This document shows positions 16,360 through 62,829 of a stretch of 64,000 nucleotides of DNA, piece after piece. The first letter of the stretch is position 1, and each line of letters starts with the position of its first letter. The DNA is from Xylona heveae TC161 (Eukaryota; Ascomycota; Xylonomycetes; Xylonales; Xylonaceae), in the NCBI RefSeq assembly GCF_001619985.1, contig NW_017264193.1:625726-689725 (forward strand), given 5' to 3'. The notes under the pieces are model-generated. The model saw nothing but the letters and a program-made list of their open reading frames with translations. It was not told the origin of the DNA and made no database searches. The position numbers and the translations under genes were made by a program.

Positions 16360-17250
16360 ATGCAGCTCACCATTTTCATCAACGTACTCCGTCACGATCA
16401 AGTCCCCCCCTTATCCTCACCGATGTCTTCTCCCTTTAGCAACAGAAATTTCCGTGGCATACTCATATATACCAAGTGATCAATACACACTTTTTGGCCA
16501 AAGATGATGCCGCTTCGAAAATTTGGAATTGCTGCCTGCGATGCAACCATTGCCACCGCGAAAATCGCGACTGCCTCGTTGCTCAGGGCAACAACGGACT
16601 GGATCTGCACATGGAGCCTGTCCAATGAACGATACGGATCATGTTTGTTCCTCCTTCAAAAAGTCACGGAATTCTTGCGGGAACAGATCATCTGTAATGA
16701 CAGTTGAACGGGCGCCCGTGTCCCAAATCATCAATTGGTTGTCCAACTTGCACACGGAGTCCTCGCTGCCAGCGTCGAGTCCTTCAATTCGTAAATTGTG
16801 GGAGCCAGCCATCTTCGAGCTCGGCTTTGATCCTCACATATGGTTGACGCCATGGTTTTTTTCGCCTCTTCCTTCCTAGCTGCTGCGAAGCGATTCTCAG
16901 AAGGCTGAGGGAAAGAATTTCCTGATTCCAGGACGGCGCTGCTTTGTATTTCTGCTCCAGCAGGCTCGTTTTCGGAGATGAGATTTGGTTGATTTCTTGC
17001 ATGCTCCAAAGAGCAAGCTCCCTGCGCCGCTGCGGTAAATCTCTAGAAGTTGCAGATGGTGGTAGTAACAAGAACTTCTCGTCTATATCGCCGAGTGAGT
17101 TCCCCACGGCATATATCGCCCCCTTCCAGGTAGACAATGCGGGCATGGTGACAGACAGGTCATTGTACTTTCTGTTCATGTCCGTTGTGAGCTCCCGGAG
17201 CACATCTAGGATGCCGCGTATCTGCTGTCATGAAGTTCTGCTGATGATGA
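16360..17250 (-). pseudogene. Decayed gene with a retropepsin-like aspartyl protease signature
   Basis: Several overlapping minus-strand frames carry pieces of what looks like one protein. The first piece is a helical N-terminal part (about 16784-17203). It is followed by a piece with WDTGARSTVIT, the D-T/S-G-A signature of retropepsin-like proteases (near 16700-16740). The last piece, with hydrophobic strands such as VAIFAVAMVA and CIDHLVYMS, lies at 16398-16600. No single frame holds all of them and the whole looks broken, with about two or three breaks. No reverse transcriptase, integrase or terminal repeats are seen nearby, so it is either a decayed host gene with a retropepsin-like domain or a small relic of a retroelement. 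A. sequence error in one place cannot be excluded. Confidence 0.5.
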
Positions 17251-29600: not shown

Positions 29601-30111
29601 CTTCTAAAGTCGTGGCCGTGATAATAGGCAGCGATGCGAGGCATCGTTCTCTATCGATGATTAGAGGAGTTGAAGGCGGTCCTTTTGCCCACTTTCAATC
29701 GGCCGTAGCTTTCACAGGGATCATAGCTCACAGCTACTGCGTTCTCCTTTGGCATTCATTCGACTCAAAGCCCGCGAGATCCCACCTTTCCCAAAGTCAT
29801 CGCCGAAATTGACATTTACCTTCTCTGACTCCCTTTGTGTGTTCACTTTGATCGCGTCCTTTGAGTTATCTTGCTTTTGCTGTCCTCCAAATGTTCTTTG
29901 TTCTCGGTTCAGCTGGCGTTGCCTTCTTTGTTCGTGGAATTAATCGGGGTCTAACCTCCATCATGACTTACACAAACGAGCATCCTCCCGGTTCTCCATC
30001 TATAGATGAAGTCTTCTTGATCTGAAGTTCCTTGAAGTTTTGCGAATTACTTCTCTCCTGCAAATTCTTTTGTCGAGATACCTTTGCACACGTAGGGTAA
30101 TTTATACGAAG
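26673..30111. other. Large gene-poor region, about 3.4 kb
   Basis: Lies between the divergent starts of the hexose transporter and the F-box/LRR-like gene. Apart from the CreA-like cluster and a pyrimidine-rich stretch before 30112, I find no supported gene. Frames at 27412-27765 and 27671-28102 lack an ATG. One at 28375-28683 has an ATG but no recognisable feature. Confidence 0.5.
26896..26940. promoter_or_regulatory. Cluster of CreA-like sites upstream of the hexose transporter
   Basis: Three matches to the CreA consensus SYGGRG lie within 45 bp: GTGGAG at 26896, GTGGGG at 26904 and CTGGGG at 26935. They are about 225-270 bp before the ATG. CreA mediates glucose repression in moulds. The consensus is degenerate, so the clustering and position are the main support. 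Confidence 0.4.
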
Positions 30112-38744: not shown

Positions 38745-40343
38745 CTAAGATGCCTTTTGCGCGTTCTTGCGCTTTTTGAGCAATTCTGCCAGCGGAATAT
38801 TGTCCTCGTCGTAGAACTCTGCCGCTTCGTCCACTCCGAAATCTGCTAGACGATCCCCATCGCGGTTTCGCCAGCCTTCCTCGCCACTTTCGTCCTCACT
38901 AGGAGAATCCCGGTCTTCTTTCCGCTTGCCACTACGGTCATACCTTTTGTGGAATCGCGCCCGCCGATACACAGGGCTTTCTCTCCTTTCCAAGTCCTCT
39001 CTTTGGCGTTGCTTGAATGCTTCTAATGATAGCGAGCTTCCAGATTCATCCTTATAAGTGAATGCGTTTTGTGGGTTTGACGGAATAGGTGTTCGAGGCA
39101 TGCGATCAGGATCAGGCGGCGGCCATGTAACGGAAGGGTCTATGGCACAATAGGATAAGTAAAAGTCCTAATAATATCACGAACATAAACTCATACCTTC
39201 AAATCCATTTACTTCAAACTCCAGACCGCTGTCCAGAGTAGGGGTGCTGGAAAATGGCCAGAACCAGGCGAGTATCTGTGCATTTTACATTAGTCACGTT
39301 ACCATCGTCCGTGGAAGCAGAGTTACATTTGAAGTTCCTCCCATGTTTTGCTTAAAGTTTTTCCAGATTCCAATGTCATATGGAAATTCCTGTTTTTTAA
39401 TCTTGATCTTGGTGCCATCCGGCCCATCTAGGTATCCGCCAAGAGCTTTGGCCCGACGTAGCAAGATGCCATGTCTTGACTTTTCCCAACTCTCAATAGT
39501 TGTCGTGTTAGATCCGAGACTCCATATTGCACGAAATAATAGGATAGTAAGGACAAATAATGTGAACGAATTAACGGAAAAAAGGACAAGAAGATGGGAC
39601 AGCTGAAGTATAGATGGGCCAAAATACTGCAGGGAATCATTGTATCAGCGCAGAGCATTATGACGTTTCACTCACAGCACTTACGCTCGGAAGATCTCTA
39701 GAATCCCATATCCATTTCGCTCTGATACAGATGAAATACTCCAAATAGGACATGGATGTCACCGCGTAGAAAACGAATCGCATAAAATGAGGAATCGTTG
39801 TATGCGAGACACAGTTTGAAGTCCACGGGCAGTGATGATCCATTTTTGGAATGCATCTGAGATGACAATCAATTAGTCCAACGGCTGAGGGACCAGCGAG
39901 TGGATGAGGAGTAATATTAAGTACCGTTTGCATTGCTTACAATGGTGAGCACGCGGCGGTTTCGGCGCTTCGCATTTCCTGCACCAACGTCCTTTGCGAG
40001 TTTGTATATCTGAGGTTCCAGTTGGCGAGGATTTGACTTCCCCCATATCCACTGGTTCCAGGTTTGTTGTGTTTGGACCTTTCGCGTCTGCTACGGTTGA
40101 ACTTAAACCCTTGGACAAGACTGCCGTGGGCCAATCCTTTGGAATTTTCCCAGGGTCGATGTAACAAGTTCTTGCGTAGCATACCCAGATACAGGCCACA
40201 ACTAAGTTGAAAATCACATATTGGTCCTTTTCTAGGGGTCCAGGTTCAATATAGTGAAAGAGTATCTGCGACGAGTACGCAAGAAATGCAATGAGTAGAG
40301 ATACTCCGGGTATGGCAAGGCTGGAGAGTGGTGGCAGCTCCAT
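38745..40343 (-). CDS. PFA4: Palmitoyltransferase PFA4 (DHHC type), 454 aa
   Basis: An ER-membrane S-palmitoyltransferase. In yeast, Pfa4 palmitoylates chitin synthase Chs3 and is needed for its exit from the ER. Five exons (40343-39925, 39856-39685, 39626-39327, 39275-39197, 39139-38745) add up to 455 codons in phase. Two N-terminal helices are followed by a DPG motif (IDPGKIP). The Cys-rich domain spans about residues 121-162, and its splice joins CKQCKR to CIPKMDHHCPWTSNCV with the catalytic Cys near 149. Two more helices follow, then a TTxE motif (TTIE). The PFA4-typical PYDIGIWKNFKQNMGG, WFWPFSSTP, GLEFEVNGFEDPS and TWPPPDPDRMPR stretches identify the subfamily. The charged C-terminal tail is cytosolic. 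It is tandem with the Skt5-like gene, about 0.8 kb away. Confidence 0.95.
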
Positions 40344-41177
40344 GTTTAATTTGGAGTCGAGGTGCCAGCACCCAAACGGTCTCACGCCAGCAATAAGATA
40401 TGGCTGAAAGTTGTGTAAAGATATTGTTTGTGCGTTGACATCAAGAGTGATCTAGCTCCGACGTCTTCCGGCTCCCTTGAGCTCGCTGCACCACTGTCTT
40501 TGCTACTCAACCATCGCCAGCCTGCAACAAAGTGAAAGAGATAACAGGAAGAATAATCAAGTTCCAGGACTCTAATGGTCTGTCCCGCCTGACTGAAGAC
40601 GTGAAATATTTTTCTTTTTACCCTTTGAGCAGCAATATCAGACCTAGGGACTTTTGAATGATCGAGGACATGTCGTCCCTCGAGTTCGCTTAAATGCGGG
40701 ATGTTCCTGCAGAACCGGGGCAATCGGGTTCCAGCAAAGGCCGATTTCTCCGGTGGGGAGATGTAGGTCAACGGTCAAAGATGTTATATAGTTAAAATAC
40801 CGTCCATTGGGCCAGTCAACGATTCAGACCCATGACATTCGGCACTGCATAGACCCTAAAAAATTATACATGAGCGGCATAGGATGAGGTCAGAATCTAA
40901 TTAAGGCTGCCAATCCAATTGGATCCAAAGAAGAACAACATCTCCCTAAGAGCGTTGAAAATGCTAACGCCCTCTTTCAACGCCAAAATTCCCGAAGAAA
41001 TGCAATGCAACCTGCTATCCAAGTCAAACGCATACTGCGTAACATCATCGCAACAAAAAAATTAAACCGCTCGCAACGCACACATATTCAAAGTCAAATG
41101 AGAACCCAACGCTGCAATGCTGTCGTGCCAAAAACAGCCAACCCCCTCCCAGAAAAATATCCACAAGGAAATCACTT
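40344..41177. other. Intergenic region between the Skt5-like gene and PFA4
   Basis: Holds the PFA4 promoter and the 3' end of the Skt5-like gene. A 129-codon minus-strand frame here begins with TTG and matches nothing known to me; it is probably leader sequence. Confidence 0.6.
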
Positions 41178-43438
41178 TTACATAATGATACAATTCTTAC
41201 CATCGGCCACCTGTTCCGTGCCGGTTGCGTCGCCTGCTTTACTTTTACTCTTGTCTCCAGCACTGGGCATAGCTTTGTCCGTCTCGCCAGAGGCCGCTGC
41301 TTGGATAATTGCTAGGCGTTGTTTTGCCCGTTCATCCCCATGACTTGCGGCCTTGACATACCATACATTCGCGTCAAGTGTGTCTCGACGGCATCCAATG
41401 CCCATTTCTTTAAAGTAGCCGACCGCATACTCGGCTTTTGGGTACAGTCCTAGACGGATTGGAAGTCAGCTTTCGTCATTCAGTACAAGGCAGACAGAGC
41501 GAACTAACCAGTTTCAGCTGATTTTCTAGCCCATTCGTATGCTTCATTCTCGTCCTTGTCTAGAACAGGCTCTGCGCCGATCATATACCACGCACAAAGA
41601 GCCATCATTGCCAGAGGATGTCCTCGTTGAGCGGCACAGTTGTAAAAGTGAACGCTAAGCGCCGGATCGCGAGGGCAGCCAAGTTGCCCATATTCATAGG
41701 CTTCGCCCAGCCGAAACCCAGCTTCTGCGTGACCCAGATCCGCTGATTGGGTGAAAAGCTGGGCCGCATATGCCTCGTCCTTGAAAATATCGGGGCCATA
41801 GCCTGTTTCATGTAGTATCGCCAACTCGTAGGGTGCAGAGTTATATTGCACGTCAGCGGATTCTGCCGCTCTTTTCAGCCATTTGATTCCTTCGCGATAG
41901 CGTTTTCCAAGGCCCATGTCGCCAGACAAGCACGCTTTGCCAAGCCGTAACATTGCGCCCGGATGGGATTTAGATGCAGATTGGCGATAGAACTGTTCGG
42001 CTTTGGCGGGATCTCTTCGACAGCCCCATCCAAATTCATAGCACAAAGCAGCTCGATAACCGGCTTCAGCATGTCCATGCTTGCTGGCGGCAACAAAAAG
42101 CGGAAAGGCTTTCTCGTAATCTTCTTGGTCCTTATTAAAGATGCCAGACGCATAGCCGTCCGCCAAGTAGTACTGAGCGAATGGATAGCTGCGATCAGAC
42201 AGTTTCTGCAATATTTGGCGAGCTTCGCGGAGGTATTCAGCCCTAGTGGCTACTGGTGAGGATTTGTCAGCCTCTTGGCTGTCCGTGCTCTTCGTGGTCG
42301 ATGTCGAGGTCTGAGCAGCTAACTCTTGAGCAGAATTAGTTAGAAAAAGAGCAAATTCGTATTGAACCGAGGGTTCGTTCGTCTTTTTTACATTCGCGCG
42401 GTACATCTCAATCGTCTTCTTGGTGTCCAGTAAGGAGGCATTCTTCCCTACCACATTTCGAAGGTGGGAATTATCCAGGCTGGCAGGACCTGGGGCATGT
42501 TGAGGGTAGGAACCATTCAGTAAATCTATATACGAGACCGGTCGGCTATTCGCAGAGCCGTCGGACAGACCCCTTATGGTACTGGGAGATCCTTTGGGGT
42601 GAGGAGAGCGTGAGCGACTATGCGCACTCAGGTTTGAGCCCAATGAAGCAACTGATGCAGGGCGAGCCAGCGAGGCTCTCGCTTGTTGTGTGCTCGATGG
42701 TGCCAACCGTTGATTCTGCTGAGATCTTCTTTCACTTGAAGAGGACCCGGGTGATTCAGGAGCTTTCCCCTTCGCTCCGCTCTGTACGGCCCGACCGCGC
42801 GCTCCTGCGCTTGATGTATTGTCCGTGGAACTCTGCTGGTGATGGTACTGGAGTGGAACGTATATCTGTGGTGGGTCCGTCCTTTCTCTAATGCTTTCGT
42901 GGGAAGATTGCATAGATTGGCCTGAAGCAGCATCTTCCCGAGATTCCCGTGGAGACTCTGAGCCCTGGCTGTCAACAGAAGAGAAGACAGCGGATTGAGG
43001 CTCATGCACACTTCCTGAGACATATCTCGTCTCACCTTGGCGGAGCGGAATAGATTTCGTTGGTCCTGCAAAATGTTCCGACACTTCGCTTTGTGGAGAT
43101 CCATAAATGCCTATAGTATTCCCATTTGTCTGGCGCGGAGCTTTGCGCATCGCATGAGAATCGAAGCCTGTAGAAGGTGTTCTCGAATGAGATACTTCAT
43201 AATGGTACTCTTTGCGCGGAGGCGATTGAGGCTGAGCTTGAATGCGGCTCGGTGAGAGGACCCTACCAACGTTTCGGGAAGGAGATGCCTGCTGTTCCTG
43301 CACTGTGAAGTTTTCCTTTGTTGAGTCTACGTCCCTTGTTGGAGATGAAAGCGGGCGTTTGCTCTGGTGTGCGCCTTGTCCTTCGCCAGAAACGGAGCTC
43401 CGGGAAGCCTTGATATTTGAATCGCTTTTCTGGTTCAT
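41178..43438 (-). CDS. SKT5: Chitin synthase activator, Skt5/Chs4-like, 733 aa, C-terminal CaaX
   Basis: A Sel1-repeat scaffold that in yeast activates and positions the Chs3 chitin synthase. Exon 1 is 43438-41509 and exon 2 is 41449-41178; the 59-bp intron splits a Gly codon (SAETG|LYPKAEY). The start is the first ATG in frame (MNQKSDSN). Residues 1-390 are Ser/Pro/Gln-rich and probably disordered. About seven Sel1 repeats run from about 390 to 680 (e.g. AGYRAALCYEFGWGC, AGFRLGEAYEYGQLGC, AEYAVGYFKEMGIGC). The protein ends in NCIIM, a classical farnesylation CaaX box, and yeast Skt5 ends in a similar prenylated box. It is a neighbour of PFA4 and of the class IV chitin synthase. Paralogs exist in moulds, so orthology to Skt5 rather than a sister activator is likely but not proven. 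Confidence 0.9.
41450..41508 (-). other. Intron in the Skt5-like gene
   Basis: 59 bp, GTTAGT..TCTAG on the minus strand. It is needed to reach the last Sel1 repeat and the CaaX box. Confidence 0.88.
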
Positions 43439-45535
43439 TTTCAGACGATTACTGGTCAGAAGTATTTCGGGTACCTCGCAGTCGTCGTGATAACAGGCAG
43501 AGGTTTCGCTTTCTCTATTTGAAATAGGTTCTGCGTTGGGAGCTCGAGTCGGACTACTGTTGGTGGCGGATATAATCAGCCAAATAATCCTGGCGGCTCG
43601 CAGGTGTAAATTCAACAGCAGTCATACGCAAAAGTGCACCGTCTACTGAGGAACACGCTTTGCTGGGAAAGGCGTGCAGCAAGGGTCAAATAATCTGCAC
43701 TCGGAACCCCAGGGTAAAACCAAGGGTGTGACGACGTATGCTCTGTATAGAGGTATGCCTACCTACCTAGATCAACTCCGACATCCGAATCTTAGCGCCG
43801 CGAAAAAGCGGATTTGCCTGGTCTCTTCAATTCAGGAACCACAGAGTCTAACCATTGCTTTCGGGGCCGATCAACCCTTTACCAAACTGTCACAAGTGTG
43901 ATCAATGAATAAAGAGTGGGTGACAAGGTGTAGGGTTGATTAGTGACGCGAGGCGCAGCCGTAAATGGTGGACCCTGGGGCAGTAGTATTATGGGCCCGA
44001 AAGACTTATAGACAGCCGAGCCAAGTGCTAGCGCAACATGCGGCGTGAGCTAGAAAGCAGATTGAGAAGTTGAATCAACTCGTGATCAAAAAGAGAGAGA
44101 AGGCAACTGCTTTTGTTGAAAGATATTGGGGGGCAGGAAACAAAGCGGACGGGGACTCTTAGGCCACACGCTGATCTATTAGATATCAAACGGCTTTCTG
44201 ACGAATGTGAACCTTTAGTCAGCAAAACGACATGGGAGATTCTCTGCGGATGAGGGGCTTTCGTCTACCTTTACCGTAATAGCGGTTCGGACAAAGGAGA
44301 GGATGATAAAAGGGCGTATATACGGAGGGGGGCTGTTTTGTACAAGACGGGGCTGGTGTAGGAAAATGAGACCTGTCCAGCCAAAAACTAAACAAAGTAG
44401 CTGGCTCAGGAGTGGCACCAGAATAACAACACAGCCATAAGGGAGACAATGAGACAGATTTGGATCAAGAGAGCCTTTAGGGTAGGTACGAACTGAGAGC
44501 GCACCTACCCTACAAGCCAAAGAACCGCGGTGCTGAGATGACGCCAAGTAGGTGTGAGAATGCGCGAGTGCGTGCGTGTGGGCGGGAGCCACTCGGCGAT
44601 CCCATAAGATCGAGAAGGAGGGTTACTATAATGGGCAACAGTTGTACCGTGTACCTGTACGCTTGCACGCACTTCATACACTTCAAATGTGCTCTTTTGC
44701 AGCCAGTGAATCTTTACCTAAACTAGATCACGCATGTGCTCATTATTCTAAACTTTTATGCGCTGATGAATTTTCTTCTGTGCATTTTTGTCCAAGTATT
44801 TCGTCAAAGATCACTACCTAATGTTGGTTTGGGGATTGAAATTGTTCGTCCACTTGAGTCAATGTACCTTGGACCTTCTCCCAGCTAAGGGCTAGTGCAA
44901 GGGGAAAACTTTTCGAGAAGACGAGGGGCCGATGAGCACGCTCTCTCGTCCCATGGCTGCCACACGTTTTTCCTCGTCCTTCTTTTTCTGGGGCTGGAAG
45001 ACCGTGCTCACCACGACCGGAAACCAACCACCCGGCTCCTCTCTCACTCAAACCCTGAGCCTTCCAGCCCGTCCGCCTCCAGGGTCTCAATAATCCATCA
45101 TCTTGTTACGTAAGGCCCTCTTCTTTCAGCGCGCCACGTTCTTGCCGAATAGGGCCTTTATATTGCTCGTCGTGACCCGTCAAATCAAATCAATACCAGT
45201 CACATGGAAAATATTTGGACGCTCAAGGGCGGTTTGAGACCCATGATCCAGAACCAGAAGCCTCACAGGGGCAAATAAGCCATCTAGCGAAGACATCATG
45301 TCAATAGTACTTAACACTTTTTTATGGGGCTTGAAAGGGTCACTGGACGATTTTAAAGAGTTATACCCGTAACTTACCTAGTAGCTTGCCGGATGAGTCG
45401 GATTGTACGCGAGAAGCGCCAGCCTCGTATCCCCTTAGTTGTGCACATTTAACCATAAGGTCCTCAACCTCTCTTTAAATCCATTGCGTACCTCTGTACA
45501 AATTTGTACGTATTAAGACTTTCAGCCTAGCCCAT
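43439..45535. other. Intergenic region upstream of the Skt5-like gene, about 2.1 kb
   Basis: Contains the Skt5-like promoter, a CCTA-type repeat near 43757-43772 and mixed sequence. No supported gene; frames near 44215-44592 lack an ATG. Confidence 0.55.
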
Positions 45536-46234
45536 TTACCTTGCATTTTCAACTCGAGAAGCATGCCATCTCCAACGATGAAAGGGAGCAGCATGTCCCT
45601 TGTTATCTGCTATCATCGATGGCCTTGTAATCAATTTCTCCATGACAAGAGCAGGAAAAGACGGAAAGGCGGCCATCTTGCTTTGCGGCATGCCTTTCGT
45701 GAGCACGGATACCCGTAGATCATATAGCTGCGACAGATCTGCGTCAACAAACACCAACTTTCTCTGGGTTTGGGGAAAAGCACTCAAAATGGATGGGCTT
45801 TTTGGTGAATGGTTGGCCGACGCTACAAGGATGGGAGAAGTTTCCTCGGCAACGTCATGTTTCCTGATATAGTAGTCAGGCTTACGAGATTTCTTCCCGT
45901 CCACTTTAGTGGATTTAAATGGGTCAGGTGCGCGGCGTATGGATGTAGCGAGACTTCTGCTAAAGTGGTCAAAAAGGCCACTACACTCGTACAGATACCT
46001 AATTCGAGTTAGACCGAGCGGCGATGCCTCGTTCCGCCCGCTGGAGGCATTCGTTCTGAGACCGACGCGCATCGCTGTTGTCTTCCAATTTTCCCCCCAC
46101 AACAAAGGCCCTTTTCCTAGAAAAAAAAATAGGAACTTCTGAGTACAGTAGAGATAGGACCACCCGAATAGAGCCTTCGGACGTAAGGTACTCGTAGTGA
46201 AGTCTTTCTTTTGGTGCCGCGGATATTCAGCCAT
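45536..46234 (-). CDS. Hypothetical protein, 232 aa, unrecognised
   Basis: An ATG-started, uninterrupted minus-strand frame in the long gap between the Skt5-like and chitin synthase genes. Its length is more than expected by chance in non-coding DNA of this composition. It is basic (RRAPDPFKSTKVDGKKSRKPDYYIRK is near its middle, shown here only by its charge pattern: many Lys and Arg) with a Phe-rich patch near the N-terminus (KFLFFFLGKG). No domain, signal peptide or obvious splice site is seen. It could be a lineage-specific gene or a non-coding stretch inside the upstream region of the chitin synthase gene. Confidence 0.3.
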   Translation of the reverse strand: MAEYPRHQKKDFTTSTLRPKALFGWSYLYCTQKFLFFFLGKGPLLWGENWKTTAMRVGLRTNASSGRNEASPLGLTRIRYLYECSGLFDHFSRSLATSIRRAPDPFKSTKVDGKKSRKPDYYIRKHDVAEETSPILVASANHSPKSPSILSAFPQTQRKLVFVDADLSQLYDLRVSVLTKGMPQSKMAAFPSFPALVMEKLITRPSMIADNKGHAAPFHRWRWHASRVENAR

Positions 46235-47048
46235 CGGACACTTCCCAAACTAGGGCGTAGCGTTGAACCCCTCGAGCCACTACAAACTGCACTGTGCACT
46301 CGCAGTGATCTTCGATTGGCTCAGACTGAAAGCCATTTCCATTTGCGTCCTGCCCTCACCCTGCGAGCATCTAAGCAGACTCAAAACACTTGCGTCAAAA
46401 AATATCCTCACGAACGGTCTACCAACACTTGGGCGTGCGATTTGACTGCAGCTCAAGTCATTTTCCCTGTTGGCCTGATACGCCTCATTAGTCCTCATCG
46501 CCGGTATTGACCTCTGGGAGGCACTGACGGTAGAGCGATCGCCGTTTACGAGTTCGGACCTTTGTTGCGATGATTGCATTACCGGTCGGCGGACATTAGA
46601 CCACATTCGAAACGGGAATACTCCTTGCGCTATTCAAAGACTGTATATTTCCTGATCTGCTGTTTCAACCTCCGGCACTTTGAAGAGTCCTTCGTCGTCT
46701 GCATTGACTTCTGCCGCCTGCGGCGGCAGCGTCTCTTCATCTTCACTTCTGGTCTCCACAACAGTGATTCAAGTCATACGCTACCCTAAATAATTTTGGA
46801 CAAGGGAACGCTAGAGAAAGGGTGGATACAAATCAGAATAAGTCGACGGTAAGTAAACAAAGAATTGATTCTGGCCGATGGATTTCTTCTCAAAGTGCTG
46901 TGGAATGTCTGCTCTTACATCATTGCCAAGGAGCGTATTGAAAGGCAGAAGAAAATCGCATTCTTCGCGTGGAGTGGCTGCAGACAAGCGTTGGTCTCCA
47001 CGTGTGGGTTTGGAATGTGGCTGACGATTTCGCCTCAAGGTATCAATA
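46235..47048. promoter_or_regulatory. Upstream region of the class IV chitin synthase gene
   Basis: Expected promoter and 5' leader of the plus-strand chitin synthase gene. I see no clear TATA box and no other gene. Confidence 0.45.
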
Positions 47049-50000
47049 ATGGCGAGCCCGCAGAAACCTGACCCGACCTCACCACGCCGGCGGCAGCATC
47101 ATCACCATCATCATCGGCATCACTCTTCCGCCGCCTTGTCCCATGGACGGTCTCGCAGTAACGATGTGGAAGCTGGCGGTTACTCGCCGCCGAGAGGCTC
47201 TCGAAGAGACCCGTATGCCTACCAACCTGCTTCTCCCGGCACACTTCCGGGTGACAGAGATCCTATTATGATGGCTTCATCAGGACCGCCTGTTGAGCTG
47301 GGCCGGAAACGCAGCTTGATACGACCGGAGCGGAACCGGATTGACCGTGACCATCCCAATTATCACTATCGCCAGCACGCACAAAATATGAACTTTATGC
47401 CCTCCACTACCGGTAATGATCCCTTAATCGATGAGCATGAGGAGGAAGCTCTGAGTTCGACAAGCACTGAAATGGCAAGCCTCAATCGTCCAGGTCAAGC
47501 AGCTCCTGTTGGCGTGGCCTATTCCGACAGCTCGCCTTCGAGAAGCGATTATGGGCATCAAAGAGGGGAAAGCGATCCTGTTCCACCTGGAAAATTGAAA
47601 AGAAGAGAGAGGAAAAAACAGCAGAAACAGCAGGAGGCGGTAACCCCGCCCAGCCTATGGAACATCTACTGTCATTTGATCACTTTCTGGTGTCCGGATG
47701 TTGTTCTAGGCTGCTTTGGAATGCCCGCAAAGGCGCAAAAACGAGCATGGAGAGAGAAAATGGGTCTGATCAGCATCATTCTCTTGATTGGCACGTTTGT
47801 TGGCTTCCTTACTTTCGGATTTACTGAAGTCGTCTGCGGGTCGGCGCCTGCACGTATGAAGGTCAATCATGTTGAAGCCGGATATATGATTTTCCACGGC
47901 AGCGCCTATGATCTGTCCAAGTCGAAACATCCTCCAGCTCGAGGAATCCCTGAAAATGCAAACGTGCTCTACGACCTTCCTGAGAAACACGGCGGGCAGG
48001 ATGGCAGCTTTCTCTTCCAGAACGTCAACGGAGCCTGTAAGGGCCTGATTACAAAAGCCAAGGGGTCAGACGTTCCTTCGAATTCGAATGGCGAGCTGGC
48101 TTGGTATTTCCCCTGCAACACATTCAATCAGGACGGCTCCAGCAAACCCAATACGACGGATCCATATTACCTAGGGTACGCTTGCCATACAACAGCCAAT
48201 AGTCGTAAAGCATTCTATGATCTCAAGAGCTCGGGGCAAGTCTACTTTACGTGGGATGATATAAAGAATTCCAGTCGGAATTTGATGGTTTACTCTGGTG
48301 ATGTTTTGGATCTTGATTTATTACAATGGTTCAACACATCTGAAGTGTCATACCCGGCACAGTTTGATGACCTGCGCAAGAATCCAGCCGTCCGAGGGAC
48401 AGATGTGACTCGAGCTTTTCAGGCCAGCTCAACCGACAAGCATCTTGCCAGCTGCTTGACAGAGATTATCAGAGTGGGATCTATCGACACCGAGACTGTG
48501 GGCTGCATTGCATCCAAGGTTGTTCTTTATGTGTCTTTGATCTTTATTCTCTCAATCGTCGTATCAAAATTTGTTCTCGCAGTAGCCTTTGGCTGGTTTC
48601 TCAGTCGACGCTATGTCGCAAATGGGATGGGTGTTTCTAAAAAGCGAAATCAAGAAATTGAAGACTGGACTGAAGATATTTACCAACCTCCGCCCAGATA
48701 TGGCGATACTATGGTTGGCGGGCCAGATAAGGGCGGCAAACGTGGCAGTACCTTACTTCCGAAGACGTCAAGATTCACCAGCCCTTACGCTGTTGAGAAT
48801 GTCGCAAAGAAACAACGTCCTACGCCAACGACGATGGCTAGCCAGAGCTCAACAGCTCGTCTCCTGGCCAATCAGCCAATGTATAGCCAAACGGATGGGA
48901 GTCAAGGAAATTTGTCCGATCCAACTAGCAAGCTCTCTCACGGCACAAGTAGGTCCAGCCTTATGCTCTCACAAGCTCCGGAAACAAGATTCTCTGCTCT
49001 AATGAGCGATGTGGATGCGGTTGGCCCTACAGGGTTCATTCACGAGAACGTCGTACCTCAACCCCCTCCAGAATGGCAGCCATTTGGATATCCCCTGGCT
49101 CATACCATTTGTTTGGTTACCGCATATTCCGAGGGTGTTGAAGGTTTACGGACGACGCTTGACTCGCTGGCCACTACCGATTATCCTAATAGCCACAAAG
49201 CGCTCTTGATCATTTGCGACGGCATCATCAAGGGCCACGGAGAAACAATGTCTACGCCCGATGCTGCGTTGAGTATGCTAAAAGATCACGCTGTTTTGCC
49301 GGACGAAGTGCAGCCTTATTCCTACGTTGCTGTGGCTGGTGGTTCAAAGAGACATAATATGGCAAAAGTATACGCTGGCTTTTATGACTACGGAGAGGAT
49401 TCGGTCGTCCCTGCGGACAGACAACAGAGAGTTCCCATGATGGTTGTGGTGAAATGCGGGACGCCCCAGGAAGCTGAGCAAGCTAAGCCTGGAAACCGAG
49501 GCAAGCGTGACAGCCAGATCATCATCATGTCATTCCTTCAGAAGGTCATGTTCGACGAAAGAATGACGGAACTTGAATACGAAATGTTCAATGGTCTTTG
49601 GCGCATTACCGGTATCAGCCCTGATTTCTATGAAATTATGCTCATGGTCGATGCGGACACCAAAGTTTTCCCCGATTGCTTAACGCATATGGTTTCTGCT
49701 ATGGTTACTGACCCGGAGGTTATGGGTTTGTGTGGAGAGACCAAGATTGCGAATAAGACTCAGAGTTGGGTGTCCATGATTCAGGTTTTCGAGTATGTAT
49801 TGACTCTTTTGCGGCTTTGGGGAAAAAAGAAGAAGTGGAAGAAGCTAACACTGGGATATAGGTACTTTATCTCTCACCACCAAGCGAAGTCGTTTGAGTC
49901 AGTGTTTGGTGGTGTCACCTGTTTGCCTGGCTGTTTCTGCATGTATCGCATCAAAGCGCCAAAAGGAGGCCAGAATTATTGGGTTCCAATCTTGGCCAAC

Positions 50001-50898
50001 CCCGATGTGGTCGAGCATTATTCCGAGAACGTCGTCGACACTCTTCACAAGAAGAATCTTCTCCTTCTGGGTGAGGATCGTTATCTTTCGACTCTGATGT
50101 TGAAGACATTCCCGAAGCGGAAGCAAATTTTTCTTCCTCAGGCCGTCTGTAAGACTGTCGTACCGGACAAGTTCATGGTGCTTCTCTCTCAACGCCGACG
50201 CTGGATTAATAGTACGGTGCACAACCTCATGGAACTTGTGTTGGTCAGGGACCTGTGCGGGACGTTTTGCTTTAGCATGCAATTTGTCGTCTTCATTGAA
50301 TTGATTGGCACGCTGGTCCTACCCGCTGCCATCTCCTTTACCGTGTATCTGAGTAAGTCAACATGCAGGCGAGGTCTCTGAGGTGCCATGTTGCTGATCT
50401 GACCGTCCACAGTCGTCATATCCTTTGTGAGGAAGCCAGTTCCTGTCATTCCGCTTACGCTCCTCGCACTCATCCTTGGACTTCCTGGTATTCTGATTGT
50501 ACTGACAGCGCATCGGCTGTCTTACATCTTGTGGATGTTGATTTATTTGATTTCTTTACCAATCTGGAACTTTGTCTTGCCGACATATGCCTATTGGAAG
50601 TTTGATGATTTCAGTTGGGGAGACACCCGCAAGACGGCGGGAGAGACGAAGAAGGGGGATGGTCACGATACTGTTCAAGGCGAGTTTGACAGCAGCAAAA
50701 TTACAATGAAGCGATGGGCCGACTATGAACGAGGTGAGTGAGAGAGAGGATTGCCTGAGGAGCAGCAGTCCAAACCCCTTTTGCTAATCCGAGATTTTCA
50801 CTACAGAGCGACGTAGTCGAGCGACGACCAGCGTTGGATGGTCACAGCCATCTGGTTCGACTTCAGGCTGGCCCTCGCAGCATCACGGCTACGACTAA
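47049..50898 (+). CDS. CHS3: Class IV chitin synthase (Chs3 type), 1215 aa
   Basis: A membrane glycosyltransferase that polymerises UDP-GlcNAc into wall chitin. Exons are 47049-49792, 49862-50352, 50413-50733 and 50807-50898 (1216 codons with stop). The disordered N-terminus has a natural run of six histidines (residues 17-22). Membrane helices lie near 237-258 and 490-515, with an extracytosolic segment between them. The GT2 catalytic core follows: [11 protein letters not shown], then [14 protein letters not shown] near 985 and QRRRW near 1024. Further helices follow to about 1140. The gap between the first two helices and the lack of a myosin motor place it in class IV. The first intron (69 bp, GTATGT) is stop-free and in frame; removing it restores [11 protein letters not shown]. 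The Skt5-like activator and PFA4 lie upstream on the other strand. Confidence 0.95.
49793..49861 (+). other. Stop-free 69-bp intron in the chitin synthase gene
   Basis: GTATGT donor, GCTAAC branch site and ATATAG acceptor. It keeps the frame if retained, adding 23 Lys/Leu-rich residues inside the catalytic core, where the family has none. Confidence 0.88.
50353..50412 (+). other. Second intron of the chitin synthase gene
   Basis: 60 bp, GTAAGT..CACAG. Joining gives [15 protein letters not shown] through a membrane helix. Confidence 0.9.
50734..50806 (+). other. Third intron of the chitin synthase gene
   Basis: 73 bp, GTGAGT..TACAG, with TGCTAAT upstream of the acceptor. It joins DYER to ERRSRATTS and leads to the TAA at 50896-50898. 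Confidence 0.88.
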
Positions 50899-53104
50899 AT
50901 ACCTTTTCGACTTACGACAAGACTTTTTTTTTTTTCATGTGAAAAATATTTTCTTACGACATGCATAGTGGCGTCCCAGTCTGCATTATATTCGAGAGCA
51001 TGAGCATCTCTAGGTTGCTGTTTCCTTTTGTGGGCTTGTATCATCTGCCATCTTCGCATTCGGCAAACTCTTGCACAAGGACAAGAAAGTCTCAGCGACT
51101 CCTCATTACAATTCTTATCATATGTTGTTGTCGCAGCACATAAGAAATTTTCCTAATATGTTCTCATAGCTCTCATATTTTTCTTAGCCTTGTAATTAAT
51201 TAGACGAGTAAATGCACATATATCGAATCATGAAAATTTTATTTCATTGTTTCTTCGTATTTGCGTTCATGGCAATTCCAGCTCGAAAGCGCCCACTGCG
51301 CTTTTTATGGTCAGTGAGTTGTCTGCGAGGGGCGGTAGTGCAGGCATGATGCCCATCGGTACATTCGTAAACGTTGTGTAAGTACAGTGCATATAGATTC
51401 CTTCTTTCTAGAATCGTAAGTAATGATAACTACCTTAAGGAAGGTCAAGCATAAATGTGAGCTGGAAAGCTGATAGAGCTGTAGGTTTAAGTTAGGCATG
51501 GTTTTATGCAAGCATGCCTGGTGCTCGGTTACTATTTGGACATTATCTTTCGGTTAGTATATGTTACCTCTGTATTGAGAGTCAAATGAGATGTGTCAAA
51601 TATCACTTATGCAGTGCCCTTGCAGTACCTTTTTGTGTGCTTTGCTTTTGCAGTTATTTCATTCCGAAAGGGTGCACGCATCCGAGGAATAAGATTTCTC
51701 CCTTGAGATTCATTGGCTATTGTGGGTTGGAGGTTCCTGTGGGAAAAACCGGGACATGGCCTTTGTGCAACCACTCTGGGCCAGGTGATTGGGCTTCGAC
51801 CCAGAGTGCAAGGTACCATGATGTACAGCTGTCAGGGACAAGCAGCTGAAGAGCATGAGAGATGATGCAAGAGCTACTTCCATGTACTGTAGCTGTATCA
51901 TTTTCTGTACATGACGCCACGAACACCCTGACAGGCCCCCGGCCAACACACAGGCGAACGCTCTCGCCAGCCGAGTTCAGGTGAGTACGACAGTGAGTTA
52001 GGGAAAAGGGGAAAATACAGCATACAAAAGCGTCTGTAAAAGGCAAAAGAAGGTTAAAAACTGGGGTGAGGTGGCAGACAAGGGCACAGAAGCGTGTCTC
52101 GCCATGAGGGCCCGTTGAACTGTCTTCCCCCCCCCCTCCCCGTCTTCCCCCCCGAAAGAAAAAAAAAATGTGCCGTACTTTGACAGCGTGAAGCGGGCAA
52201 CCTTCTATGATACAACCAGAAAATCAGTGAATACCTGAGTCTTCCTGGGCCCTTTTGCCATTATCATTCCTCCACTTTTCTTTTCCCGCCTCCTCCTTAC
52301 CTTGACAACGCCCCATCCAAAAATAAAAAAGAAAACATCACGCCCGTTTCTTTTCATGTTCTTTGCCACGTGCTGCTTGATACACCCCCCTTACTGCTCC
52401 ACAACCAAAAAGGGCTGGCTATCGCTCGCATATTCCGCCGCCCGGCTGGCCAATCTCATGAGAAAGAGCCTGCTGTAGTATTGGCATTTTATCCCCCGAG
52501 ACTGCCCGCTTGCTGAACCCCCCACCATTTTAACTGACAGCCGGCGGCCCACGCGTGCACCGTCGCCGATTATAGAGCCCGTCTCTAGTCGGGCCTCTAC
52601 CTTTGTCACCTTGTAAATCATAGCCCAAGCGGCTCTGTTCGAACCTCTTCGAAAGAGTGGCCCCGCGGATAGATCGCTTGCGCCGCCTCTCGTATCAGCA
52701 CTCGCTCCCGCTTCGCCTTGCCCAGCCCGAAACCCCACCTCATCTCAACGCTCTTGGACTACGGCCAAGGAGCCTTTGTCAAGCTTCAAACGTCCGTTTG
52801 CTTTTTGCAAATATCGCTTTGCTTCTGTTAGCTTGCTTGCGCATTTGCATTGAGATTTTAGGCTCACCGATTCTCTTCTTAGCTCATTGCTTCGGCTGGC
52901 TCGAATCGTCTCCTTCAGGGTGGATCCCTCCGGAGAAGGAAGCGTGGATCACTCATTGCTAGGCTTCACCCATTGACTCACATCGCTTCGCCTGGGCTCA
53001 CGCGCAGGGAACCCATCGCTCAGTGTTGCTGATAGGGTCATATTGCTTCTGAATCTCTCGCTGTGCACGCCCAGCCTCATGTCATCATAACATCCAATCG
53101 TCCT
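50899..53104. other. Intergenic region, about 2.2 kb
   Basis: The 3' region of the chitin synthase gene, then the leader of the WD40-like gene. It contains C-runs near 52127-52154 followed by an A-run. Short frames (51514-51849, 52391-52738, 52657-52962) look non-coding or lie in leader sequence. Confidence 0.55.
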
Positions 53105-56017
53105 ATGCCCGACCGTTGCAGGCGGTCTAGTCTCCGTGCTGGTCCTTGGTCTGCAGACATCCATAAGTCCCTAAACTCGGGCGTTTCCTCGCAGAGAAGT
53201 GCTGGCGAGTCCAGCTCTCCACCTGGTGTGCGGCCTACCTCAGGCCGATTCGAAAGCGTTGAGGATACCCGAATAGCGCAAATGTCGAATGCGACACCCG
53301 GCTGTCCAGACTACCCTGGGGGTTCCATCTTGCCATCTGCACAGCAATACCAGCGTCAGCAGGATCAGCCACAGGAGAACACTCGACCAAGAGTGGTGGA
53401 GATCAACTACAATTTTGGCCGTCGGAATAGTCATCTACAAGAAATCGATTTCCCGCATACCAATCTGAACGCCAATGGGCAGTACCCTCGAGCCGCTCCA
53501 GACAACTCGCGTTTGACTACGTTGCATCCTCATCCAGCCAACAGTGAACTGCGACCAGATGACTCGATAATAAAGTACCAAGTTGACAACTCGGTGATGG
53601 ATCTTGGTGCTCGCCCGAACGACCCGAGCAGTCGTGATTGTGAAGATATGGGCTCCTTTTCCACTTCTGAAAGTGAATGCGATGAACACGATCATCAGTT
53701 GGCAGGCTATCTGAGCAGTGGAGATGAAGGTGCGGGTGGTGTCTCCCTATCTCTAGATGATGTCGACATGGACGTGGAGATGAGTGGAGGCGTGGGCGCC
53801 GGTTTTGGTGGCTTCTTCACTGGTGATAGCGATGGCGACGAAAGGTCATTTGCGTCACCGTCATCTCAGGCGATTTCGTTTCAGTCCGTGGCTCAAGTGC
53901 TGGCGCAGCAAGAACCTGTTTTTGCGTCGCTCTTGGGTGACGAGATGGGAGATCAGTATAGCTCTACGTCCGAAAGCCTGTCATCAGAGGAGCTCGAGCG
54001 CGAGCTCGAACGCTATTTCGACCCAGATGCCCCAGCTCAGGCGGCTTCACTATCGTCGCTCCCATCCCTTGGGAACTTTACCCCTCCCAACGTATCGTCC
54101 GGTTCGGCAATGGCTGACAATGGACTCTTCTTCCCTCCAAGCAATCCTAGTTCTGATGGACCGGGCCATGGAAACAGTTCTTTTTCACAACCTCTGGAAC
54201 AGTCATCGATACCTGGGGTGATGGCTGGCATAACTCATCAAGCGGTTCCTGGCCTTTCATTTTCAACCCCAATGGCCGAGTTTGAATCTTCGTCCGAATT
54301 GAGTGATGCAGAGAGCGACAGTGCTGTCGAATATGATTCACCATCCGCCATGCCGCTGCCGGAGCCTGCTTCAATCGCCCCCTTTCTTGGCCCAATAGCA
54401 ATGCAGTCTTCGATCAACCTTCCTCTCACTTGGCCCACAGGCATTCTCGATGATGATGGGGCAGAGCAAGAACTCGAAGCTTACCCTTTCGAAGATCTTG
54501 AGCGCAACCCGGACGTTTGCAAGTTCCTCGAAACCTGGAGAGTCCACCATGGGCTTCGACATCCGGACTTTGCACCAGTCGGCCCAGATGCTTTACATGC
54601 TAAACATTGGACAAGGCCAGTTGAGATTACTCGCGATGATCTACAGGGCGACCGATTTGACGCTCAGGGCATCAACTGGGAAAGACTTGGTACAACGAGA
54701 AGTGCTGCCCGGCAAGCTCGCGGCAAGCTTTACACAAATTATACGAACCTTAGAAATGTGTACCCGTCCAAGGTTTGTTACAACGGATTTTGCATTCTTC
54801 ATCCTGAGCCAAAGCTAACCTGAATCGTTTTGGTGCAGTATGCTCAAGATCTTCCTGAAACAGAAAACTTTTTCCAATTTCGGCGCATGGATACCACGAA
54901 GCACCCTTCCCTGACTCATTTTCAACTTCGGAACCTAATATGTGCATCATCGAAAAATGACGTGTACTACGCCGGCAAGTCGAGAGTCTATAGCATGAAT
55001 CCGAGCATTCAAAAGGAAACTTGTGTGATGGATCTTACGAAACCTTCTATCAGTACTATTTACCCTGGCGGGCTTCGAATCTCGACCATATCGGCGAGTG
55101 ACGGAGTTTTGATTGCCGGCGGGTTTGGTGGTGAATATGCAATGACCACCTTGCATTCCAATTATGATGAAGCTCATGTGGAAGGGCTCGTGAGCCGGGA
55201 TGACAAGGGCATTACAAACCACGTTCATACATTTCTTGATCGCTTCAACTCACACCCGAATGCCGTTTTCTCCTCGAATGATGGCAAGATTCGCGTGCTT
55301 GATTGCTATTCCAACAGATTCATTCGAGAGCATTCTTACGGATATCCCATCAATTGCTCCGCAACGAGTCCAGACGGCCGCTTGCGGGTCGTCGTCGGAG
55401 ACGACACTGCTGTGACAATTAGCGATGCTGAGACTGGCGAAACGATTGAAGCACTTCGGGGCCACCGTGATTACGGTTTTGCTTGCGCGTGGGCCGATGA
55501 TGGAATCCATGTTGCCACGGGGAATCAGGATACGCAAGTGTACATTTATGATGCTCGAATGTTCCGTCATCCTCTGCAGATAATTGCATCTGAAATGGCC
55601 GGGGTTCGTGCTCTCCGCTTCTCTCCGGTCGGAGGCGGGCGGCGTGTTCTTCTCATGGCCGAGCCAGCCGATATCGTTTCCGTTGTAGATGCAGAATCTT
55701 TTACAAGTAAGCAAAAACTGGATCTGTTTGGAGAGATTGGCGGCATCAGCTTCACCCCAGATGGTTCCGAGTTCTTCGTTGCGAACACGGACGAAAAGTT
55801 TGGCGGGATTATGGAGTATGAGCGTGTTGGCTACGGGGCACAGTACGGCATGAAGTACACACGACAGCGGGAAATTGAAGATTGCGGAGATGCATACTGG
55901 GATGAAAAGGACTTTGAATGGATCCCTGACGATGCCCTCTCCGACGACGATCGTGTCAAGCGAGCTGGTGCGCATCGTAGCCGTCGCGGCCTCGATCTAG
56001 GAAACCTGGTGTACTAG
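53105..56017 (+). CDS. WD40-repeat-like protein with acidic disordered N-terminus, about 948 aa
   Basis: Exon 1 is 53105-54772 and exon 2 is 54839-56017. The 66-bp intron (GTTTGT..TGCAG) joins VYPSK to YAQDLPETENFFQF. The start is the first ATG of the open frame (MPDRCRRSS); a later ATG at 53283 is an alternative. The first 460 residues are Ser-rich and acidic (SSEELERELERYFDPD, LSDAESDSAVEYD). The second half contains beta-propeller strands: SNDGKIRVLDCY, SPDGRLRVVVGDDTAVTISDAETGE, GHRDYGFACAWADDGIHVATGNQDTQVYIYDAR. These resemble WD40 repeats, although few end in canonical WD. The C-terminus is charged. Fungal genomes carry such conserved proteins, but I cannot name its function. No membrane helix or signal peptide is seen. 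Confidence 0.82.
54773..54838 (+). other. Intron in the WD40-like gene
   Basis: 66 bp, GTTTGT..GTGCAG, with AGCTAACC as branch site. Exon 1 is exactly 556 codons. Confidence 0.85.
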
Positions 56018-58878: not shown

Positions 58879-60737
58879 ATGAGACTTCCATTTGCCGGTC
58901 TCGCCATCTCGGCGCTGCTGGGATCTTCTGCGGCTGCTTCTATTCACGAGCGCCGTCACAACCATGCGCACTTCCATCGCAGCCCCGAGGAAGCTGTTTC
59001 TGTGGCCACGGCTACCGAGGAGGTTTCCTATGTTTACACCACCTTTGTCTCCACCTGGTATGGAGAACCAGGCTGTAAGTGGATTGTCTGACATGGCTCA
59101 TGTTGGATTTGGATTTTCCGATATTGAAAAAAATTAAGGACAACAAACTAATGGAATTTTCAATAGTGGTTCAGCCTTCCACCGTGACAGAGACGACCTC
59201 CTCGTTGACCACGACCATTCTTAAGCCTACTGGCACTTCATACTACACCGCCACCGTGACGGTCAGACCTGTCAACAGTTCCACTGCCTCGCCTTCCTCG
59301 ACGCAGTCTGTCCCCGCGTCCTCTGCGAGCAGCAGCTCCTTCTCTTCCTCCTCTTCTGTCGCCTCCAGCGCCCCGGCCAGCTCCTCGGTCGCTCCTTCTT
59401 CTTCTTATTCCTCTATCTCCAGCTCCGCGGTTGCTGCTTATTCTTCTTCTTCTTCTTCCTCTGCCGTCTCCTCGAGTCCCAGCGCCAGCTCCGCTCCCGC
59501 ATCGTCTTCCGCTTCTTCCAGCCCAGCTTCTTCAAGCAGCAGCGCTTCTTTCTCCTCTTCCGTCCCTGCGTCTTCTTCCACCTCCGTCGGCTTCGCTGGC
59601 GCCAAGGCCGCCTTCAATGCTGCCGGTGATTCTCAGGCCAGCTCTAGCTCCTCCTCCTCTACCCCCTCTTCCTCGTCCTCCTCTTCCAGCTACGTAGCTT
59701 CTCCCAGCCCGACCTCGTTCGCCACCAGCTACACTAAATCTGCTGCCTCTTCATCGGCCGTGACTTCAGCCTCCACCTCCACTTCCACCACCTCCTCCTC
59801 ATCCTCTTCTTCTCCCTCCGCCTCATCCAACCCCGGCACCATCAGCTCCAACGGCAACCAATGGGCCATCACCTACACCCCCTACGACTCCAACGGGGGC
59901 TGCAAGGACGCTGGCACCGTCGCCAGCGACATCTCCGCCGTCAAGCAAGCCGGCTTCACCTCTGTGCGAGTCTACAGCACCGACTGCAGCACGCTGGCCC
60001 ACGTCGGCTCCGCCGCGCGCCAGAACGGCCTCAAGCTGGTCCTCGGCATCTTCATCTCATCCTCGGGCATCTCCGGCGCCGGCGACCAGGTCTCCGCCAT
60101 CGAAGACTGGGCCCAGTGGGACCTCACCGAGCTCATCGTCATCGGCAACGAGGCCGTGTTTAACGGCTACGTCTCCGCCTCCGACCTCGCCGGCTTCATC
60201 ACCTCCACCAAATCCCAGTTCCAGCGCGCCGGCTACTCGGGCCCCGTCACCACCACCGAGCCCCTCAATGTCCTCCAGTCCAACGCCGACACCTTCTGCA
60301 ATGCGGTTGATGTCATCTCCTCTAACCTCCACCCCTTTTTCAACTCCCAGGTCTCTGCCGACAAGGCCGGCAGCTTCGTCGCCTCCCAGTTCCACGTCCT
60401 CGAGCAGCTCTGCCCCAATAAGCCCGCGTATAACCTCGAGACTGGCTGGCCCTCGTACGGCACCTCGAGTAATGGCGCCGCCGTCCCCGGTGAGCAGGAG
60501 CAAAAGACGGCCATTGCGGCCATTGCCAATGCCGCTGGAAGCAGGAGTGTCATGTTTTCGTTTGAGTAAGTTTTTCCCCCTCATTTCTCCATTTCTCCAT
60601 TTCTCTCCCTCCCTGGCCCATCTTGCGTCATAGTATCAGACCGGACTAACATTGTTTTTACTAGAAACGACATGTGGAAGCAGCCGGGCGAGTTTGGCGT
60701 CGAGCGTTCGTGGGGCTGCCACACGCTCTTTGGATAG
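58879..60737 (+). CDS. Secreted GH17 wall glucanase, Scw11-like, 555 aa
   Basis: A cell-wall glucan-modifying enzyme of family GH17 (endo-beta-1,3-glucanase or transglycosylase). Exons are 58879-59074, 59167-60565 and 60665-60737 (556 codons with stop). A signal peptide covers about residues 1-20 (LPFAGLAISALLGSSAAA). A short conserved block YVYTTFVSTWYGEPG follows. A Ser/Ala/Thr-rich linker of roughly 190 residues is probably heavily O-glycosylated. The catalytic domain begins at about 295 (WAITYTPYDSNGGCKD). The acid/base Glu is in IGNEAVFNGY (about 394) and the nucleophile Glu in ETGWPSYG (about 490). The tail is NDMWKQPGEFGVERSWGC and there is no GPI-anchor signal, so it is secreted or covalently wall-bound. 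Domain order fits the Scw11 group; whether it acts in cell separation is inferred. Confidence 0.92.
59075..59166 (+). other. First intron of the GH17 gene
   Basis: 92 bp, GTAAGT..AATAG, with ACTAAT near the 3' end. It joins WYGEPG to LVQPSTVTE. Confidence 0.85.
60566..60664 (+). other. Second intron of the GH17 gene
   Basis: 99 bp, GTAAGT..ACTAG, with GACTAAC branch site. It joins MFSFE to NDMWKQPGE. Confidence 0.88.
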
Positions 60738-61133: not shown

Positions 61134-62159
61134 CTAGCTCAAAAATTTACTGGCCAGACTCATCAATCCTCCCGCACCGCCCTGTCCGCCAGCGCCCATC
61201 TGGTTCTTGGCGTACATTTTAAACGCCATCTCCGCTGCAGACGTGATTACGCTCTGCTTGTCCGTACCCGCAGAGACGTTGCCCTGGGCGCTCTGCTGCT
61301 CAAACAGTTTCTCCGCCTGGGCCATGGCCATGCCGATAAACTCGTTCTTGGATCCGCTGGACCCTTGCTGGCCCGACGTGAACATTTTGAGGGCTTGCAT
61401 GGCTGCTGCCGCGCCCAGGCCGTTGCTACCGGCACTACTGCCACTACCTCCGGCACCGCCGCCACTGCCACCGCCGTATACATTCTGGTGGTGCTCGACA
61501 GCTTGTTGCTCATCGAGCGGCGAGTTGGCAATATGCTGCTTGTTGTTGTTCAAGAACGAGAGCGCTTGGCTGAACAAGTTGCTGCTGTCTCCGCCACCAC
61601 CGCTGTGGCGCTGCGCGTGCTGTGCGGCGCTGCTAAAGTCGTCGTCATCATTGTTGTTGTTATTGTTGTAGTCCGAGGGTCCTGAGCCGGGATGGCTAGG
61701 GTAGCCGTAGGATGTGCCCGTGTTGGAAGGCATATCGTTGTACGAGGGCCTGTCATTGTAGTTGGACCTGTCGTTGTGACTGGGTCTGTCGTTGTAACTG
61801 GGCCTGTCATTGTAATTGGACCGGTCGTCGTAGTTGTTCCGGTCATTGTAATTGGACCTGTCGTTATACGATGTTCTGTCGTTGTAGCTGTCCCGCTCAT
61901 CGTACTGGGAATCGTAGCCTCCTCGACCACCAGATCCAGCACCGCCAGACCTGCCGTAGCTCGAGTCCGTGGTGCTATTGTATCCGCCCCGACCGTCGGG
62001 TCCGGTAGCAGCAGACCGGTCGTCAAAAGCGTTGGACGAGTCATAGTAGTTGTCACGGCCACGGTTTCCACCGCCGCCGTATTCAGAGTCGTCTCCGCGG
62101 CGGCCGTATCCGCCGTCATTGGAGCCAGAGCCGTAGCCGTACTGGTCGTTGTAAGACAT
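61134..62159 (-). CDS. Gly/Asn/Tyr-rich 'beta-flanking'-type protein with YNDR repeats, 341 aa
   Basis: A single exon from ATG 62159. The first 60 residues are Gly/Tyr/Asp/Arg-rich. About residues 89-142 consist of roughly nine or ten tandem six-residue units of the form xYNDRx (SYNDRT, NYNDRN, SYNDRP and similar), followed by N- and D-runs. The second half has a more ordered helical part (LFSQALSFLNNNKQHIA, AAAAMQALKMFTSG, KNEFIGMAMAQAEKLFEQQ, VITSAAEMAFKMYAKNQMG) and a glycine-rich end. This layout fits a fungal family often named beta-flanking protein, whose function is not known to me. The composition resembles prion-like, phase-separating proteins; that is inference from composition only. 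Confidence 0.85.
   Translation of the reverse strand: MSYNDQYGYGSGSNDGGYGRRGDDSEYGGGGNRGRDNYYDSSNAFDDRSAATGPDGRGGYNSTTDSSYGRSGGAGSGGRGGYDSQYDERDSYNDRTSYNDRSNYNDRNNYDDRSNYNDRPSYNDRPSHNDRSNYNDRPSYNDMPSNTGTSYGYPSHPGSGPSDYNNNNNNDDDDFSSAAQHAQRHSGGGGDSSNLFSQALSFLNNNKQHIANSPLDEQQAVEHHQNVYGGGSGGGAGGSGSSAGSNGLGAAAAMQALKMFTSGQQGSSGSKNEFIGMAMAQAEKLFEQQSAQGNVSAGTDKQSVITSAAEMAFKMYAKNQMGAGGQGGAGGLMSLASKFLS
61733..61894 (-). repeat. Coding 18-bp minisatellite (YNDR repeat)
   Basis: About nine imperfect copies of an 18-bp unit. On the plus strand each contains the core GTCGTTGTA or GTCATTGTA. Confidence 0.85.
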
Positions 62160-62829
62160 GATTGGTTTGTTTGTATGTGTTAAGGTGTGGTCGGGTGTCT
62201 TTTGTCTGTGTTTTGTCGTACGCGTTGTTGTTGTGAGCGTGGATGAGTGGTCGGGTGTCTTTTATTTGTGTTTTCTTTTCTCTCCTCTCCCTTTTCGGTG
62301 CTCTTATTTTTTAGGCTGCTGGGATTTTCTCCTTTGTGTACTCTTGTTTTCTAGGCTCCTAAAATGTACATCCAACGTCAGTTATATATCGTCCTTCCAG
62401 ACAAGCGCGATCGAGACGTCATGATAAGGTGTTTGTGTTTTGGGCGAGCTGACGTACTGTACCGTACCTGAGCTAACTTAAGTGACGTAATTACCTAGTG
62501 TACTACTGAGTTGCAGTTTCGTACCGGTTTACGCGTAGAATGAACCTCCGTTAGAAGGTGTCTGAAAGATGCAGTAGATTCAGCTTTACAATCCAGGATA
62601 ATCTGGTGAGAGTTTTGCCGATTTGAAAGGAAAGTGACAAAACGATGGATTGAGTATTGACTATTGAAGCGGTGGGGGAGCAGCTGAGCAGCAGAGCAGC
62701 AAGGCTGAGGCGAGGAGGGGCAGGTTCGCTAATGACGACCCGAAACCGAGGCGACCACGTAGGCGGTGTGACATCCAAGGACAAGAGGACGACACAAGGG
62801 CAAAGTGGGGTTCTAGTTCAGGGGGCCTT

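Follow-up and report, generated by a model that had tools for sequence, protein, structure and literature searches.

A class IV chitin synthase and its Skt5/Chs4-like activator in a probable known wall cluster of Xylona heveae, with a PFA4-type palmitoyltransferase gene behind the activator

Introduction

In filamentous ascomycetes, class IV chitin synthase genes have been described in conserved neighborhoods that include an Skt5-type activator of the enzyme. According to the main text of Pacheco-Arjona & Ramirez-Prado 2014 (PMC4141765), the class IV synthase stands head-to-head with its activator in six Aspergillus genomes (A. fumigatus, A. clavatus, A. nidulans, A. oryzae, A. terreus, and N. 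fischeri), and the Aspergillus block also includes a myosin (given as class V or class i), a kinase, and PP2A. The same text places the activator within the class IV blocks of F. graminearum, F. oxysporum, F. verticillioides, C. globosum, N. crassa, and P. anserina, for which it does not state adjacency, and reports that transcript levels of the synthase, activator, glucanase, and kinase are associated in A. oryzae. The main text of Guerriero et al. 2016 (PMC4964407) describes a core of chsD, the WD40 gene FPWD, the activator, and a GH17 glucanase over several Pezizomycotina classes; myosin is not named there among the core members outside Aspergillus, and an MFS transporter is mentioned as a conserved neighbor. 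Here, we analyze a stretch of 64,000 nucleotides from X. heveae TC161 (assembly GCF_001619985.1, contig NW_017264193.1, positions 625,726 to 689,725, forward strand; hereafter the window), in which a class IV chitin synthase gene lies opposite an Skt5/Chs4-like activator gene, with a gene for a PFA4-type palmitoyltransferase behind the latter.

The third gene type is known from the Chs3 route. In yeast, palmitoylation by Pfa4 is required for Chs3 to exit from the endoplasmic reticulum (ER), as stated in the relevant passages of a review (PMC7389182), and in C. neoformans both the palmitoylation and the localization of Chs3 depend on Pfa4. An earlier reading of the window, made from the sequence alone, described the three genes as an unusual cluster for a housekeeping pathway and suggested that linkage or co-regulation had been selected.

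Results and Discussion

The window most probably holds the known wall cluster of filamentous ascomycetes, a reading to which we assign a probability of about 0.87. A class IV synthase and a head-to-head activator form its center, an FPWD-like WD40 gene and a GH17-type gene lie downstream of the synthase, and the PFA4-type gene lies behind the activator (Table 1). The identities, order, and domains of the genes were observed directly in the window. Coordinates, strands, and order of the three neighboring genes are all as the sequence-only reading had claimed, with PFA4 and the activator in tandem on the minus strand and the synthase divergent from them across a 3.6-kb gap. PFA4 and the activator are separated by 834 base pairs (bp), and the activator and the synthase by 3,610 bp. 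Two codon-use scans find zero coding-like stretches in the larger gap. A hidden gene was considered there and rejected: the sole listed stretch of at least 150 amino acids (45539-46249, minus strand) scores negative for coding.

Table 1. Coordinates of the cluster genes and their candidate companions in the window
Feature	Position	Strand	Remarks
Probable PFA4-type DHHC palmitoyltransferase gene	38745..40343	-	5 exons, 454 amino acids; Pfam DHHC PF01529 E 9e-33
Skt5/Chs4-like chitin synthase activator	41178..43438	-	1 intron 41508-41450, 733 amino acids; Sel1, CaaX CIIM
Divergent intergenic region, activator / synthase	43439..47048	.	3,610 bp
Class IV (Chs3-type) chitin synthase gene	47049..50898	+	2 introns, 1,238 amino acids; PF03142 + PF22997
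WD40 gene, candidate FPWD	53036..56014	+	open stretch, start codon not fixed
GH17-type glucanase	59079..60566	+	open stretch, start not fixed
Gly-rich DUF7721 protein, candidate beta-flanking (bf) gene	61137..62261	-	Pfam PF24845 E 1e-28

The assignment of the synthase to class IV rests on its domains, motifs, and length. The coding sequence is interrupted by introns at 50353-50412 and 50734-50806, and its exon 1 matches Chitin_synth_2 (PF03142, E 6e-228) and a CHS4-like domain (PF22997, E 4e-32). The motifs QVFEY, EDR, and QRRRW are present, corresponding to the class criteria QXXEY, EDRXL, and QXRRW, and the length of 1,238 amino acids compares with 1,235 for the class IV enzyme CHS-4 of N. 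crassa (PMC7389182). A Pfam scan of exon 1 shows no myosin domain. Against solved structures, the synthase stretch gives weak matches to three chitin synthase sequences, the best with E 2e-7. A cytochrome-b5-like domain has been reported for the N. crassa division 2 synthases by another method, CDD/FungiDB (PMC7389182); the corresponding family, PF00173, is absent from the 6 families that the Pfam scan of exon 1 returns at E up to 1, an absence that speaks against this domain in the window synthase, though not decisively. Cysteines 208, 215, and 222 of the protein precede the first predicted membrane helix (240-258) and are putative palmitoylation sites.

Pfam Sel1 matches exon 1 of the activator at E 3e-29 and hits five stretches of it at E up to 1; the protein begins with a low-complexity region and ends in the CaaX box CIIM. 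Among its 15 distinct matches to solved structures, none is named as fungal Chs4. The sequence-only reading had itself raised the possibility that this protein is a paralog serving another synthase, which would make its pairing with the class IV gene meaningless. Filamentous ascomycetes do have several Skt5 homologs, with three in N. crassa (PMC7389182), and at least AN1554 and AN3122 are listed as regulators in A. nidulans. Both the form and the position of the window gene nevertheless make this explanation very unlikely. In CSR-3, an Skt5 paralog known from work on cell fusion, the Sel1 repeats are followed by a long domain, whereas the window activator has a short tail after them and lacks a long domain of the CSR-3 type. 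Its position agrees with those of AN1554, Afu8g05620, and CSA-1. In A. nidulans, AN1554, annotated with "regulation of chitin synthase activity", is followed by AN1555, the class IV gene chsD, and then by AN1556, the FPWD locus (PMC4964407). Afu8g05620, which is described by its activator orthologs in a source that names it chs3, is followed by Afu8g05630, the class IV gene chsF. In N. crassa, the activator CSA-1 is NCU09322 and chs-4 bears the nearby number NCU09324 (PMC7389182). Here and below, the adjacency of AN, Afu, NCU, and FOXG genes is judged from locus-tag numbers given in papers, and such numbers are not maps. Because CSA-1, with a tag near that of chs-4, is reported to interact with CHS-4 (a statement of the review PMC7389182), the window activator probably serves the class IV synthase.

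Conservation of the linkage between synthase and activator is taken from the literature, and together with the gene models and domains it upholds the link that the sequence-only reading drew between these two genes. Because conserved clustering and some co-expression are already in print (PMC4141765, PMC4964407), the pairing is not novel for these fungi, nor is it unusual, contrary to the description of the cluster as unusual for a housekeeping pathway. Only the PFA4 neighbor may be new. Expression data in print are mixed. In conidia, chsD and AN1554 are both upregulated, yet so are 14 of the 15 other chitin genes in the list of 17.

The list of three genes given by the sequence-only reading is real but incomplete, since the FPWD-like WD40 gene and the GH17-type glucanase gene lie downstream of the synthase. 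The product of the former scores 36 bits against the generic WD40 model, for which the cut-off is 27. Named propeller models remain under their cut-offs, most of them far under, with THOC3 the best (E 2e-15). A proposed 66-bp intron at 54773-54838 keeps the reading frame. Its position and domain make the gene a candidate for FPWD. The GH17-type protein has zero Pfam matches; a phmmer search matches it to the solved beta-1,3-glucanosyltransferase 4wtp (E 1e-6), and the alignment includes the IGNEA and ETGWPS regions. We take 4wtp to be a GH17 enzyme and the two regions to bear the catalytic glutamates. Farther downstream, the glycine-rich DUF7721 protein resembles the product of the bf gene, described with Gly-rich stretches (PMC4964407), and is a candidate for that gene. 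On the other side of the core genes, a sugar-type MFS transporter gene occupies 24984-26681 on the minus strand (Sugar_tr, E 1e-128), and it is possible that it represents the transporter mentioned as a neighbor of the published cluster.

Several points weigh against equating the window with the published cluster. An exact-motif search of the window in six frames returns no P-loop motif of myosin, although an intron within the motif would hide it. A second, loose myosin pattern gives one match, at 29781 on the minus strand, within a stop-broken stretch. Neither the kinase nor PP2A is among the 20 open reading frames (ORFs) scanned, which cover only part of the window. Finally, synteny in other species is drawn from papers and locus-tag numbers, and the two cluster papers enter the comparison by their text, apart from figures and supplements.

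The gene behind the activator encodes a DHHC protein in five exons (40343-39925, 39856-39685, 39626-39327, 39275-39197, and 39139-38745), joined in frame across GT-AG introns. The DHHC catalytic motif is intact, and human DHHC20 is the top of 8 matches among solved structures (E 7e-20). The Pfam scan shows no ankyrin match, which AKR1 would give. The protein also has PWTxNC and PHFxRF features that we take to be PFA4-like, and assignment to the PFA4 type, a subfamily name resting on these features, is therefore probable.

PFA4 could genuinely belong to the cluster, with selection maintaining the linkage, perhaps via shared chromatin or promoter regulation, so that all three products would be made together. 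The distance of only 834 bp to the activator is consistent with membership, as is the action of Pfa4 on the class IV Chs3 of C. neoformans. Pfa4 has many other substrates, however: in C. neoformans, 72 proteins are Pfa4-enriched, and in U. virens the enzyme acts on the mitogen-activated protein (MAP) kinase UvSlt2. The phenotypes of pfa4 and chs3 deletions in C. neoformans are also incompletely congruent, and chitin staining with calcofluor is not significantly altered in pfa4. In F. oxysporum, the Swf1-like FonPAT2 has a chitin synthase, FOXG_19023, of unspecified class, among its putative substrates; the relevant passages of PMC9927311 do not show this for the PFA4-like FonPAT1. Moreover, expression within the cluster is not uniform. 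When A. nidulans is exposed to wall stress, AN1554 decreases and AN1556 increases; AN1555 is not mentioned in the text of that paper.

Gene numbers in other species point in two directions. FonPAT1 of F. oxysporum is FOXG_11304, and the next number, FOXG_11305, is myosin-1 (PMC9927311). Because a myosin is present in the Aspergillus cluster (PMC4141765) and is numbered beside the PFA4-like gene of F. oxysporum, PFA4 and the cluster may descend from one ancestral block. In N. crassa, by contrast, PFA-4 is NCU02118, a number distant from both NCU09322 and NCU09324 (PMC7389182). The main texts of both cluster papers (PMC4141765, PMC4964407) contain 0 occurrences of "Palmitoyl"; figures and supplements, which are outside this count, might show a palmitoyltransferase. 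A literature search by candidate locus tags, in part limited to papers with at least two of the terms, did not place PFA4 in Aspergillus, and the gene number of PFA4 was not found in the passages of papers on AkrA and on melanin palmitoylation. Scans find no relatives of the synthase, activator, and PFA4 in viral contigs, and no relatives of the synthase and PFA4 in prokaryote genome contigs; both results are expected because the locus is fungal.

We therefore consider it unlikely that PFA4 is a cluster member held in place by selection. That it sits beside the conserved synthase-activator cluster through a neutral accident of lineage is the likely explanation. The distant PFA4 tag in N. crassa fits this explanation, as does the numbering of myosin-1 directly after the PFA4-like gene in F. 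oxysporum. Many genes belong to the Chs3 route, so chance adjacency of one of them somewhere would not be improbable. The myosin common to the F. oxysporum PFA4 neighborhood and the Aspergillus cluster argues in the other direction, as a hint of old linkage. Most likely, the linkage of PFA4 to the pair reflects a lineage-specific or patchy neighborhood rather than an established functional unit. It is correspondingly doubtful that the cluster conserves PFA4 as an unrecognized member in part of Pezizomycotina, forming one co-regulated housekeeping unit of the synthase, the lipid modifier for its ER exit, and the farnesylated activator. The selected three-gene unit suggested by the sequence-only reading finds no support beyond the window, and the N. 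crassa tag NCU02118, far in number from NCU09324 and NCU09322 (PMC7389182), speaks against it.

We infer by analogy that the three proteins may act on one another in X. heveae. As in yeast and Cryptococcus, the palmitoyltransferase would lipidate the synthase and thereby allow it to exit from the ER. The farnesylated activator would bind the synthase and activate it at the plasma membrane and septum, and the activated synthase would produce part of the wall chitin.

The locus thus adds one more instance of a published housekeeping cluster for wall synthesis, and it points to PFA4 as a possible additional member. Were PFA4 conserved in the cluster, the enzyme would be linked with both of its lipid-dependent regulators, and the trafficking of chitin synthase could be studied as a co-inherited unit.

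Other Features of the Window

An amino acid permease gene at 21012-22691 on the minus strand has an E value of 2e-120. Amino acid permeases are counted among the Pfa4 substrates in one review, and the occurrence of this possible substrate class in the same window is probably a coincidence. PIG-S, of the glycosylphosphatidylinositol (GPI) anchor pathway, is encoded at 4829-6394 on the minus strand (E 6e-149), which places a gene of a cell-surface pathway about 32 kb from PFA4. An AMP-binding enzyme at 7403-9517 on the plus strand extends over more than one open stretch. The regions 14995-18800 and 27200-30700 contain no coding-like ORF above the codon-use threshold and are either gene-poor or occupied by genes with many short exons.

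Comparison with Known Systems

By the yeast naming rule, the systematic names YOL003C and YBL061C denote genes on different chromosomes. These are the names of Pfa4 and Chs4 in yeast, unlike the linked genes of the window, although the yeast Chs3 route, with Pfa4, Chs4/Skt5, and Chs3, comprises the same three protein types (PMC7389182). The class IV block of Aspergillus, as described in the text of PMC4141765, resembles the window in that the synthase and an Skt5-type activator are adjacent and divergent, with a wall glucanase nearby. It differs in that the window has a PFA4-type gene adjoining the activator. The bf gene of A. nidulans lies in tight linkage with FPWD (PMC4964407), whereas in the window the GH17-type gene lies between the WD40 and DUF7721 genes. 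Like the FPWD-chsD cluster described in the text of the same paper (PMC4964407), the window brings together the activator, the class IV synthase, a WD40 gene, and a GH17-type glucanase gene in one neighborhood.

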